NCBI GenBank assembly: GCA_002863125.1
Contig: PKEB01000028.1
Location: 1-64,000, forward strand
Direction: 5' to 3'
DNA from: Flavobacteriales bacterium
GTDB taxonomy: Bacteria > Bacteroidota > Bacteroidia > Flavobacteriales_D > Sanyastnellaceae
Length of the DNA: 64,000 bases
A program made the position numbers and the translations under genes. Under the pieces are notes generated by a model. It was not told where the DNA came from. It saw only the letters and a program-made list of their open reading frames with translations, and made no database searches. Below are positions 59,315 through 62,921 of the stretch, piece after piece; the first letter of the stretch is position 1, and each line of letters begins with the position of its first letter.

Positions 59315-60466
59315 TCAATTTTTGGTGAGCGGTTTGACGCCTTGTTCTTCCCACGTTTTGCCCTCAAACTTGACGACAAACGCATCCGGAAATCCTTGGT
59401 TTTGGATTTGGGACTTCTGAAGACTGGCTTCCACCGAGGAGTCATACGAACCCACCGCGTATTTGTAAAGACCGTTACGAATATACTCAACCACCGGTCC
59501 CACATGGGCAAGCCGTGAATCGTCTGTGGATAAGGGGTCTTGAGACGCCAAAATTTGGATGCGGTAGGTAGGGGAAGCCATAGGGGCATTGGGGTTGGGT
59601 GCCGCCGCCACCGGCTCGGCGGGTTCCTCAGGTGCAGGTTGCGGCGCCGGGGCAGGCTCGGGGGCTGCGGGACCCGGGTGGTGCTTCTCCTTGTAGGCTC
59701 GGAAGGCCCGCAAGAGTGCACTCGCCATCAATTCTTTTCCGTTTTGGGAGTTGAGGAAATCTTCTTCCTCGGGATTCGTGAGGAAGCCCAATTCGACCAA
59801 TACCGAAGGCATGTTGGTGAAGCTGATGACGTAGTATCCGGCTTGCTTTACCCCGCGGTCTCTGCGACCGACGCGATTGGAGAATTGATTTTGGATGAGG
59901 CTCCCCAGCTCGAGGCTTTGGTTGAGGTACACAGACTGCCTAAGGGCCAATGCGATGTAGGTGTCAGGATCATCTGGATTGAATCCGGCGTAGCGCGTCT
60001 CGTAGTCGTCTTCTTGGTAAATGGAGGCGTTTTCTTTCATCGCCACGCGGAGACTTTCTTCGGATTTGTGCATGCCCATGACGAATGTGCTCGAACCCCG
60101 GGCTTGGGGGTTGTCAAACGCATCGCAGTGAATACTGATGAAGAGGTCGGCTTGGGTTTCATTGGCCAGCGCAACGCGTCGCTGTAAGGAGGGGTATTCA
60201 TCCCGTTCCCGCGTCATGACAATTTTCACATCGGGAAACCGTTCTTGGATGTACTTGCGCAGCAGCAATGCCACATCGAGTGTCACTTCTTTTTCCGTGG
60301 TTCGGTACCGCTTTGTGCCGAGGTTGCCGGGGTCAGCTCCCCCGTGTCCGGCATCGATCACCACGACCATGCTCGGCGGCACCGGAGCGAACGAAACCGA
60401 TAGGAGAATGATGGCCGCCATGCCGCATAGCACCTTACGTTTCGTTAGTTTTGACAGCCGTTTCAT
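59315..60466 (-). CDS. amiC: N-acetylmuramoyl-L-alanine amidase with SPOR-like C-domain
   Basis: Zinc amidase that cuts the stem peptide from muramic acid during septation. Signal/anchor segment MAAIILLSVSFAPVPP; the amidase_3 domain (about residues 35-260) has VVIDAGHGGADPGN (zinc His), SIHCDAFDNPQARGSSTF and a late VLVELGFLTNPEEE. A Pro/Ala linker leads to a SPOR-like domain (about 310-375, YRIQILASQDP). The ATG at 60466 shares its first bases with the lptD ATG. The gene symbol is a general guess within the AmiA/B/C family. Confidence 0.9.
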   Translation of the reverse strand: MKRLSKLTKRKVLCGMAAIILLSVSFAPVPPSMVVVIDAGHGGADPGNLGTKRYRTTEKEVTLDVALLLRKYIQERFPDVKIVMTRERDEYPSLQRRVALANETQADLFISIHCDAFDNPQARGSSTFVMGMHKSEESLRVAMKENASIYQEDDYETRYAGFNPDDPDTYIALALRQSVYLNQSLELGSLIQNQFSNRVGRRDRGVKQAGYYVISFTNMPSVLVELGFLTNPEEEDFLNSQNGKELMASALLRAFRAYKEKHHPGPAAPEPAPAPQPAPEEPAEPVAAAPNPNAPMASPTYRIQILASQDPLSTDDSRLAHVGPVVEYIRNGLYKYAVGSYDSSVEASLQKSQIQNQGFPDAFVVKFEGKTWEEQGVKPLTKN

Positions 60467-60483
60467 GGGTAAGTTCAAATCTA
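60446..60483. promoter_or_regulatory. interlocked promoters of lptD and the amidase
   Basis: Plus strand: TAGTTTTG (60446-60453), 11 nt before the lptD ATG (60465). Minus strand: TAGATTTG (60476-60483), 9 nt before the amidase ATG (60466). Both fit TAnnTTTG exactly, and each sits inside the first codons of the other gene; the two start codons overlap in one CATG. Confidence 0.5.
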
Positions 60484-62921
60484 AAACGTGGTCCAGGGCC
60501 CGCATCGTCTGCCGGCAGGGGATTTTCCGTGCCATTTTGTGGATAAGCCTGCCCGCGCTTGGTCAAGCCCAGGAGGCCGTTCAGGACTCTACAGCCACTT
60601 CAGCTGAAGCGGCTTTCGAAGTGGTCTGGGGTGCATCCGATTCCACTCGTATGAATGCAGTAGATTCAGAGGTGGAGCTTTACGGCTCGGCGTTTGTAGC
60701 ACTGGATGACATCCGCCTTGAAGCCGATCGCATTGTCTATTCACAGGCGACGAATCAAGCATGTGCCTACGGTCGGAGGGATTCGGCTGGGGCGTGGATC
60801 GGGCGACCGGTACTGACGCAAGGCGGGCAGACGTTCGAGCAGGACGAGTTGTGTTTTGACATGAAGTCGCGCCGCGGGCTGAGCCGCAAAGCCGTTACCG
60901 TGCAGGGTGAGGCGATTTTTCACGCGGCCGTAGCCAAGCGCCAAGCCAATGAGCGCATTCACGTGGCCAACGCCAAATTCACCACCTGCGACGCTGAGAA
61001 CCCCCATTTTCACTTTCACCTCAGACGTGCTGTGATGATTCCGGGTGAAAAGGTGGTATCGGGGCCTTTTTATCTGAAGTTCCGCAAAATTCCGACGCCA
61101 CTCGCACTGCCCTTTGGTTGGTTCCCGACCCCCCCCGAGAAACGCAGTCACGGCCTCTTGATGCCCGGATATGGGGATGGAGGGAATTTGGGTTTTTTCC
61201 TCAAAGACCTCGGGTACTATTTGCCATTGGGGGAATACGCGGACACACGCCTGACCGCCGACATCTATACGGGCGGTTCCTGGGCCATCCGGAACAGCAT
61301 CAATTACAAAATCCGCTACCGAGCGAGTGGGAATTTCAACGTAAGCTTCCAACGCCAACGCATCGGATTCACGGGCTTGCCCAGTTTGACCAAGCAGAAC
61401 CAGTTTTTCGTGCGGTGGACGCACAATCAAGACGGCCGGGCACGTCCCAACAGCCGCTTCAACACCAGCGTGAATTTTGGTTCCAATAACCACTTCCAGT
61501 CCAACTTGAGCAGCTCGCAGCAGGATTACCTGACCAATACGTTCCAGTCCAGTGTGCAGTGGTCGCGTACGTTTCCGGGCAAGCCGTTCAATGTGGCGAT
61601 GAGCGCTCGGCATTCCCAGAATTCCCAGACGGGCAATGTGGACGTTACCTTGCCCGCGTTTACATTCAACTTGCAGCGGGTCAGCCTCGCCAAATTATTC
61701 GGCCTAAAGCAGGTCGGAAGCGGCTTGCTAGACGACATCGCTATCTCGGGTTCATCGCGGTTTGAACAAAGGATGCAGGCGCCCGATAGCGTATTCAATT
61801 CAGGCAATTGGGAGGACGTCACTTTCCGCAACGGCGTCAAGCATACGGCTTCTGCGTCGACGCAGTTGCGGGCTGGGTTTGTGAGCGTGACGCCTTCGTT
61901 TAACTACAATGAATTCTGGGCCTTCCAGTCCTTGCAAGGAGAGCTGGTCGAAACTGACGAGGGGGTGGTAGAAGTGTTGGACACCTTGAACGGATTCGAT
62001 GCCACCCGCGATTGGCGGTTGTCTGTCAACGCCTCCACGCGGTTTTACGGAACGTTCGAGCGGGGCAAGGACAAGCGCGTTACCGCTTTGCGCCACGTCA
62101 TCAGTCCTTCGCTTGGATTGAGCTACACCCCCGAACGGCAGCGCACTCAAGAAGTCAGCCTCAATGACGAAAGCTGGCAATACAATCCCTACAGCCTCAA
62201 CCGCTTTACGCCGCTCGATATTCGCGCTTCGGGTGCAGTGAACTTCAGCATCGCCCAGAACCTGGAAGCGAAAGTGCGCGACAAGGAGACGGGTGACCTG
62301 CGCAAGGTGCGGCTCATCGACAACATCGTGACTTCGGCGAATTACAACTTGATCGCCGATTCGTTGGGGTTGAGCGATATCGTGACCCGCGGCAACACGG
62401 ATTTGTTCAACCGGATGCGGGTCAATTTCGGCGCTACGCACAGCGCTTATGCCCGGGATTCGACGGGACAACGCATCGATCAGTTTTTGTGGGAGACCGG
62501 GGAGGGACCCCTGCGCCTGACGCGTGCCAACCTGGCTTTCGGCAGCAACTTCAAAGGAGGCGAGGAGACCCTGTTCCCGTGGAATTGCCGCGTGGATTAC
62601 AATTTTGACATGCGCAAAAGCTGGCAGCAGGCCACCCAATCGGACACGCTCCTCATTAACCAATCCGCACGCATTCGTGGGTCCATACGCATTGCAGAGA
62701 AGTGGAATGTGGATGTGAACGGTGGTTACGATTTCATCAACCGCGAGTTGACCCCAACGCAGTTGGACATACGGTGGGACCTGCACTGCTGGGAACTGTC
62801 GGTCAATTGGGTACCCATCGGCTTCCGCAAAAGCATCTATGTGCGGCTGAACATCAAGTCGTCGATGCTCAAGGATTTGAAATTGGAATTCCGCGACAGC
62901 GACCTGCCGACCTTGTTCTAA
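60465..62921 (+). CDS. lptD: LPS-assembly outer-membrane protein LptD
   Basis: Inserts lipopolysaccharide into the outer leaflet. An 818-residue exported protein (signal segment ILWISLPALGQAQ) with an OstA/LptA-like N-domain (about 50-230; NERIHVANAKFTTCDAENPH, then PGEKVVSGPFYLK) and a long beta-barrel (KRSHGLLMPGYGDGG onward) ending in an aromatic residue (LPTLF). Bacteroidota LptD proteins have this form. The only plausible start is the ATG at 60465, since the next in-frame ATG lies after the signal segment. Confidence 0.88.
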   Translation: MGKFKSKTWSRARIVCRQGIFRAILWISLPALGQAQEAVQDSTATSAEAAFEVVWGASDSTRMNAVDSEVELYGSAFVALDDIRLEADRIVYSQATNQACAYGRRDSAGAWIGRPVLTQGGQTFEQDELCFDMKSRRGLSRKAVTVQGEAIFHAAVAKRQANERIHVANAKFTTCDAENPHFHFHLRRAVMIPGEKVVSGPFYLKFRKIPTPLALPFGWFPTPPEKRSHGLLMPGYGDGGNLGFFLKDLGYYLPLGEYADTRLTADIYTGGSWAIRNSINYKIRYRASGNFNVSFQRQRIGFTGLPSLTKQNQFFVRWTHNQDGRARPNSRFNTSVNFGSNNHFQSNLSSSQQDYLTNTFQSSVQWSRTFPGKPFNVAMSARHSQNSQTGNVDVTLPAFTFNLQRVSLAKLFGLKQVGSGLLDDIAISGSSRFEQRMQAPDSVFNSGNWEDVTFRNGVKHTASASTQLRAGFVSVTPSFNYNEFWAFQSLQGELVETDEGVVEVLDTLNGFDATRDWRLSVNASTRFYGTFERGKDKRVTALRHVISPSLGLSYTPERQRTQEVSLNDESWQYNPYSLNRFTPLDIRASGAVNFSIAQNLEAKVRDKETGDLRKVRLIDNIVTSANYNLIADSLGLSDIVTRGNTDLFNRMRVNFGATHSAYARDSTGQRIDQFLWETGEGPLRLTRANLAFGSNFKGGEETLFPWNCRVDYNFDMRKSWQQATQSDTLLINQSARIRGSIRIAEKWNVDVNGGYDFINRELTPTQLDIRWDLHCWELSVNWVPIGFRKSIYVRLNIKSSMLKDLKLEFRDSDLPTLF

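Follow-up and report, generated by a model that had tools for sequence, protein, structure and literature searches.

Two divergent genes of a Flavobacteriales bacterium, encoding a cell wall amidase and the outer-membrane protein LptD, probably share a real control region for envelope functions at their junction, as judged from comparisons of its sequence across the order. It is likely that sigma-A promoters overlap face to face there, that the polymerases using them would be mutually exclusive, and that a regulator site is locked to the amidase promoter. The gene identities, the boxes, their conservation, the codon-level constraint and the spacing rules described below were observed directly. 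The window is the whole stretch of 64,000 nucleotides that was analysed, and the features of the junction are as follows (positions are those of the window):

59315-60466, minus strand: amidase gene (N-acetylmuramoyl-L-alanine amidase, Amidase_3, 383 aa), with a signal-type N-terminus
60446-60453, plus strand: predicted -7 box of the lptD promoter, TAGTTTTG, within the amidase codons
60458-60471: predicted transcription starts at 60458 (plus strand) and 60471 (minus strand), each +/- 1-2, derived from the box position rule
60464-60467, strandless: CATG common to both start codons (window sequence; 21/21 same-genus loci)
60465-62921, plus strand: lptD gene (LptD_2, 818 aa), with a signal-type N-terminus
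60476-60483, minus strand: predicted -7 box of the amidase promoter, TAGATTTG, within the lptD codons
60522-60531, strandless: third element, first half, ATTTTCCGTG, in lptD codons 20-23 (about -51 to -60 when counted from the amidase start)
60538-60546, strandless: third element, second half, TGTGGATAA (reverse complement TTATCCACA), with its beginning 62 bases away from the amidase box (about -67 to -75 when counted from the amidase start)

Both gene assignments passed the curated Pfam cut-offs: Amidase_3 with an E value of 9e-53 (179.3 bits, cut-off 27) and LptD_2 with 8.8e-129 (430.6 bits, cut-off 22.5). The first-pass annotation had placed both starts in a single CATG, with a signal-type segment at each N-terminus and no better start for either gene, and all of this was borne out. 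The plus-strand ATG starts at 60465, and the minus-strand ATG has its A opposite 60466. In the window, lptD has no ATG, GTG or TTG between the CATG and its hydrophobic core (the earliest TTG is codon 25), and its other in-frame ATGs, further upstream, sit before the predicted transcription start. The next in-frame upstream ATG of the amidase (60505) is absent from several members of the genus (e.g. L006, L008). Alternative start codons were ruled out for either gene, being absent or unconserved.

Each gene had also been credited with a perfect TAnnTTTG box inside the first codons of the other, and both boxes are indeed exact: they lie 10 and 8 bases from the CATG and face each other across a gap of 22. 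The motif is unenriched in the window (13 copies vs 15.0 +/- 4.0 in 100 shuffles), and no other copy was found there near the amidase gene or lptD. The 2,274,441-base genome holds 263 + 292 copies and one facing pair with a gap of 15-28, which is this junction (reversed control: 2). Our own arithmetic from the 263 + 292 boxes gives about 0.47 chance facing pairs per genome, so that one pair is by itself weak proof and the weight rests on position and conservation. A chance origin of the pair was ruled out on these two grounds, though about 0.5 would be expected per genome. Back-to-back pairs with a gap of 0-30 number 12 (reversed control: 3) vs the one facing pair, and compact divergent promoters of this genome are therefore normally arranged back to back. 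At one such pair (G000:C2:30350-30373), the boxes are 8 bases apart and each is 4 bases ahead of an ATG.

A TAnnTTTG box followed at short distance by an ATG with a long frame is commoner than with control patterns, as a promoter box predicts. The 464 kb of the genome covered by the window and loci L115-L134 contain 114 boxes, 63 of them with an ATG at most 60 bases on that opens a frame of at least 100 codons. Fifteen of the 63 stand exactly 4 bases ahead of the ATG, as leaderless mRNAs would give, and the box-to-ATG bin of 0-4 bases holds 16 cases for TAnnTTTG vs 2 for GTTTnnAT and 4 for TAnnTTTC. The junction boxes, 11 and 9 bases ahead of their ATGs, fall between the two usual distance classes of the genome, which counts against their being promoters. 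According to the excerpts of the papers used here, leaderless mRNAs are few both in F. psychrophilum (5.5%; PMC9723704) and in B. thetaiotaomicron (3.7% under 10 nt; PMC7366714), and a high leaderless fraction in Bacteroidetes is spoken of elsewhere (PMC5397173).

The junction was compared in related records, which are metagenome-assembled Flavobacteriales (e.g. Crocinitomicaceae bacterium MED692). Unselected counts are those for the window's family (19 genera; 6/114 genomes without an lptD match) and for the order (399 genomes). The wider set of 57 genera includes 20 loci fetched as matches to a three-part pattern (allowing the third element at 58-66 bases) and 18 further genomes picked mostly for failing to match it. 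Loci L009, L020, L052-L059, L099, L148, L152, L153, L174, L192 and L193 are outside the 134-locus count.

Such a comparison had been suggested by the first-pass annotation, and within the genus it found the gap of 22, both boxes and the common CATG in 21/21 junctions; L011 has different bases under the lptD box and still presents TAnnTTTG. Beyond the genus the facing boxes are kept, and the CATG is confined to one clade. The earlier emphasis on the CATG was thus misplaced, as the facing boxes and the third element are older. In the window's family an exact facing pair with a gap of 17-28 is present in 17/19 genera (shuffle expectation 0.00; actual gaps 19-24), and in 19/19 when one mismatch and a gap of up to 36 are allowed. 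Across the 57 genera, with part of the loci chosen by pattern, for or against, the exact pair is found in 38 (shuffle expectation 0.11). The looser count, given without a shuffle control, is 52/57 and likely takes in chance cases from AT-rich f3, f4, f5 and g48 loci. Outside the window's clade the genes are further apart and the boxes still face each other: the inter-box gap is steady while the intergenic distance varies, and the two middle bases of the box differ between genera while TAnnTTTG itself is kept.

The arrangement is also missing from parts of the order. None of the 4 g48 loci examined has the exact pair at the usual gap, nor do most f3 and f4 loci or f7, and in the f4 and f7 loci the unit is absent in strict form. 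The facing pair occurs in 2/17 genomes of g33 (counted anywhere in the genome) and the three-part pattern in 0/17. In the two g33 loci tested, an OstA-like domain is contained in a long extension at the N-terminus of LptD: the LptD frames (L152:452-4522 and L153:1150-5202, both on the minus strand) run to about 1350 residues, in the order OstA-like PF13100 with a weaker LptD_N match, then LptD_2. In f9 loci (e.g. L154, L167, L173), the lptD start seems by eye to be TTG or a similar weak codon, not ATG.

All loci of g1, g3, g22, g29 and g34 (45/45) have the in-frame common CATG, and these genera form one clade with a support of 100 (amidase tree, 130 rows). The same rule flagged 7/8 loci of g19, 1/6 of g27 and 1/2 of f9g36, and because these genera hold flagged loci the label costs 4 changes on the whole tree. 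When the sequences are read by eye, the CATG of g19 lies to the right of the amidase box and is therefore a different feature from that of the window. On these comparisons the CATG between the boxes is the recent part of the junction and the facing boxes are the older part. This is explained most simply if, in the window's clade, leaders became shorter and both genes extended into the shared promoter, until they would start inside it at one CATG.

Alignment anchored on the amidase box revealed two more conserved blocks in the lptD signal-peptide codons (ATTTTCC-like and TGTKRATAA), which constitute the third element. In every one of the 33 genera having TGTKRATAA together with the pair, its start was 61 (18 genera) or 62 bases (15 genera) from the amidase box (sd 0.5), with distances measured within 40-110 bases. 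Its distance to the lptD box ranges over 89-98 bases (sd 2.0; 33 genera), and the in-frame lptD ATGs take positions between -11 and about +31, counted from the amidase box. The fixed distance to the amidase box, with a shifting lptD box and shifting ATGs, argues that the third element is locked to the amidase promoter. In the window's family it is present in 15/17 exact-pair genera, always at 61 or 62. Of the six f3 genera, four lack an exact facing pair at the usual gap but retain the amidase box with the element at 62. The element is centred about -71 from the predicted amidase start, which lies in the range where upstream activators often act.

The three-part pattern was found in 241/399 genomes of the order (40/70 genera; 2 matches with the reversed control), as a single copy in nearly all genomes bearing it and as two copies in at least three. 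In its exact form it is absent from 158/399 genomes, and from 79/238 of those at least 90% complete. Of the 20 matching loci fetched, 18 are divergent amidase/lptD junctions and 2 (L160, L170), without an lptD match, were dropped, which means that part of the 241 matches may be other loci. The locked pair of amidase box and element occurs only at this junction in the 464 kb of the window's genome. A regulon search with the loose dyad WTTWTC-N13-15-GATAA was unspecific (3 + 2 matches in the window's own genome vs 2 + 2 in the control).

The consensus of the DnaA box is TTATNCACA. It is fitted by the TTATCCACA of the third element in the window's genus (g1) and in g29, whereas other genera carry TTATCAACA or TTATTAACA at this position. 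The window's genome has 7 copies of TTATCCACA and 3 of TTATCAACA in all, unclustered. No origin-like cluster of the 9-mer was found in this genome, in 4 dnaA loci of 2.2-3.5 kb (at most one variant each) or in 7 other genomes (scattered same-strand pairs only), and the origin was not located. One of the 7 copies of TTATCCACA lies within the amidase gene (window 59525-59533); a copy near this position is kept in 9/21 same-genus loci, and L002 ends short there. Pairs of TTATYMACA 20 bases apart were seen in L234, L235 and L238 (1501 and 1521), with a fmt-like frame in L234 and L235 and a common unidentified frame in L235 and L238. In L233 a pair 30 bases apart (1501 and 1531) precedes a gyrA-like frame; these frames were named by eye.

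In both genes the codons under the boxes are constrained. Among 20 same-genus lptD sequences, 376 columns have an invariant degenerate residue and just 8 an invariant codon; 7 of these are codons 5-8, which lie under and next to the amidase box, and codons 21-22 and 27 in the third element. The hypergeometric value of 4e-14 for this distribution ignores the kinship of the sequences and was calculated after the result was seen. In 21 amidase sequences, identity is 0.86-1.00 in codons 5-9, which lie under the lptD box, vs 0.29-0.71 in codons 10-31, and 2 of the 9 invariant codons (6 and 9) are under the lptD box. The case for the lptD box leans, in these alignments, more on the identity of amidase codons 5-9 than on invariant codons. 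The first residues of both proteins therefore appear to be shaped by the promoter of the neighbouring gene, more clearly for LptD than for the amidase.

From these features we infer promoter activity, start points, exclusion and a regulator. In the excerpts used, the box is placed at -12 to -5 in F. johnsoniae (PMC6847099) and F. psychrophilum (PMC9723704), which predicts starts at about 60458 (plus strand) and 60471 (minus strand), about 13 bases apart and on opposite strands. The predicted leaders would be 7 bases for lptD and 5 for the amidase, and the predicted 5' mRNA complementarity 14 bases. With starts so close, two polymerases would hardly be able to sit together, judging from the geometry and from usual footprint sizes. 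For another pair of overlapping promoters, the excerpt used states that only one is bound at any time (PMC4207663). The first-pass annotation had called simultaneous binding impossible: the facing boxes behind that claim are conserved, and the exclusion itself is deduced from geometry.

Several features of the sequence disagree with known promoters. No conserved -33 column was seen on either side in 19 genera. The excerpt for F. johnsoniae describes the -33 element as much less evident (PMC6847099); since it is faint there too, TTTG near -33 may not define a promoter in this order. Two findings count against the promoter reading of the lptD box: it has G at -10 in 17/19 genera, a base virtually absent from this position in F. 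johnsoniae according to the same excerpt (PMC6847099), and 17/19 genera have C at the predicted start of lptD transcription.

The steps of the proposed mechanism are as follows. Promoters of the primary sigma factor would drive lptD rightward and the amidase gene leftward, and a polymerase at one promoter would cover the start of the other and exclude its polymerase, so that the two genes would compete for initiation. The third element (ATTTTCC...TGTGGATAA) most probably binds a regulator, which would act on the polymerase at the amidase promoter and tip this competition. On a single DNA molecule such exclusion would last for one round of initiation, and its more natural outcome would be a ratio or a competition rather than a cell-cycle order. 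Mutual timing of septum splitting and LPS insertion, as proposed by the first-pass annotation, goes beyond the predicted competition for initiation and has no support yet.

Alternatively, a dimeric regulator could bind the facing boxes as one palindromic operator with two arms (TAGnTTTG...CAAAnCTA), the promoters being elsewhere. In the window's genus each arm repeats the other almost perfectly in inverted form, and the lptD box favours TAG (17/19 genera) beyond what the general box demands. We nevertheless hold this to be very improbable: the gap slides by single bases from 19 to 28, and is 31-36 in some genera, which a fixed dimer would forbid, there is free variation at the middle positions of the amidase box, and the window offers no further TAnnTTTG near either gene. 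Plain economy is a more serious alternative, possible if somewhat doubtful, in which independent housekeeping promoters were packed together ancestrally and kept since each is needed, the overlap and exclusion being meaningless and the third element concerning the amidase only. This genome has many compact divergent promoters, as the 12 back-to-back pairs show (control 3), and loss of the arrangement in some genera shows it to be dispensable. Yet the facing form is unusual (1 in the genome) and has been kept in 38/57 genera despite the drifting apart of genes and leaders.

It has also to be considered whether the third element works in the lptD mRNA or peptide, as a stem-loop or as slow signal-peptide codons, rather than at the DNA level in the amidase promoter. 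It does lie within signal-peptide codons, and its halves ATTATC and GATAAT could pair in some genera. In the window's genus, however, the halves ATTTTC and GATAAG pair incompletely, and the distance of the element is fixed to the amidase box while the in-frame lptD ATGs move. A search of Rfam with 59900-61100 gave no family above threshold and one sub-threshold match, surely due to chance. Such a role thus seems unlikely, and overlapping promoters with a regulator site on the amidase side are the preferred reading.

Regulatory DNA is seldom recognisable over a whole bacterial order. Here the geometry of a three-part unit was held across families, even through conversion from noncoding to coding sequence. 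This points to a conserved link of cell wall splitting with outer-membrane LPS assembly in Flavobacteriales, provides in the third element a precise candidate binding site for a regulator, and suggests that the promoter of a neighbouring gene can determine N-terminal residues of a protein as a side effect. A bolder proposal, distinctly improbable at present, is an order-wide envelope switch in which the exclusive facing promoters and a replication- or growth-responsive regulator (possibly DnaA) couple LPS export through LptD with the splitting of the wall by the amidase, the switch having been swallowed by both genes in the window's clade. If this were true, the first residues of each protein would there be dictated by the promoter of the other gene.

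Overlapping face-to-face divergent promoters are found in E. coli at bioA/bioBFCD and argE/argCBH. The junction resembles them in its divergent genes, in promoters pointing at each other (here represented by the boxes), in the 5' mRNA overlap and polymerase exclusion (both predicted here) and in a possible common regulator. It differs in its Bacteroidota -7 boxes, in joining two envelope genes of different pathways, in a third element that is tied to one promoter and lies well away from the overlap, and, in the window's clade, in having both start codons inside the overlap at one CATG. No earlier report of the amidase/lptD junction was found among the matches listed in open PubMed Central papers.

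The Pc and Pr promoters of plasmid pLS20, as described in the excerpt used (PMC4207663), are likewise overlapping and divergent; one of their genes encodes a DNA-looping regulator, whereas neither junction gene is a regulator, and each -10 box is the -35 box of the other, whereas the -7 boxes of the junction face each other across about 22 bases. Initiation in both directions within a few tens of bases, as predicted for the junction, also takes place at symmetric bidirectional promoters, whose starts lie 18 bases apart (PMC10268837, excerpt used); in these the -10 elements coincide and the transcripts do not overlap, whereas the boxes of the junction are separate and facing. A bidirectional promoter with a shared -10 element was ruled out by this geometry, with boxes 22 apart and facing. 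To the Bacteroidota primary-sigma promoter TAnnTTTG, as given in the excerpts used (PMC6847099, PMC9723704, PMC7366714), the junction is alike in a consensus -7 box on both strands; it differs in that no -33 element was seen, in the G at -10 of the lptD box and in very short predicted leaders. Overlapping face-to-face divergent promoters, in a Bacteroidota variant that includes an additional element at a rigid position, are the most likely mechanism.
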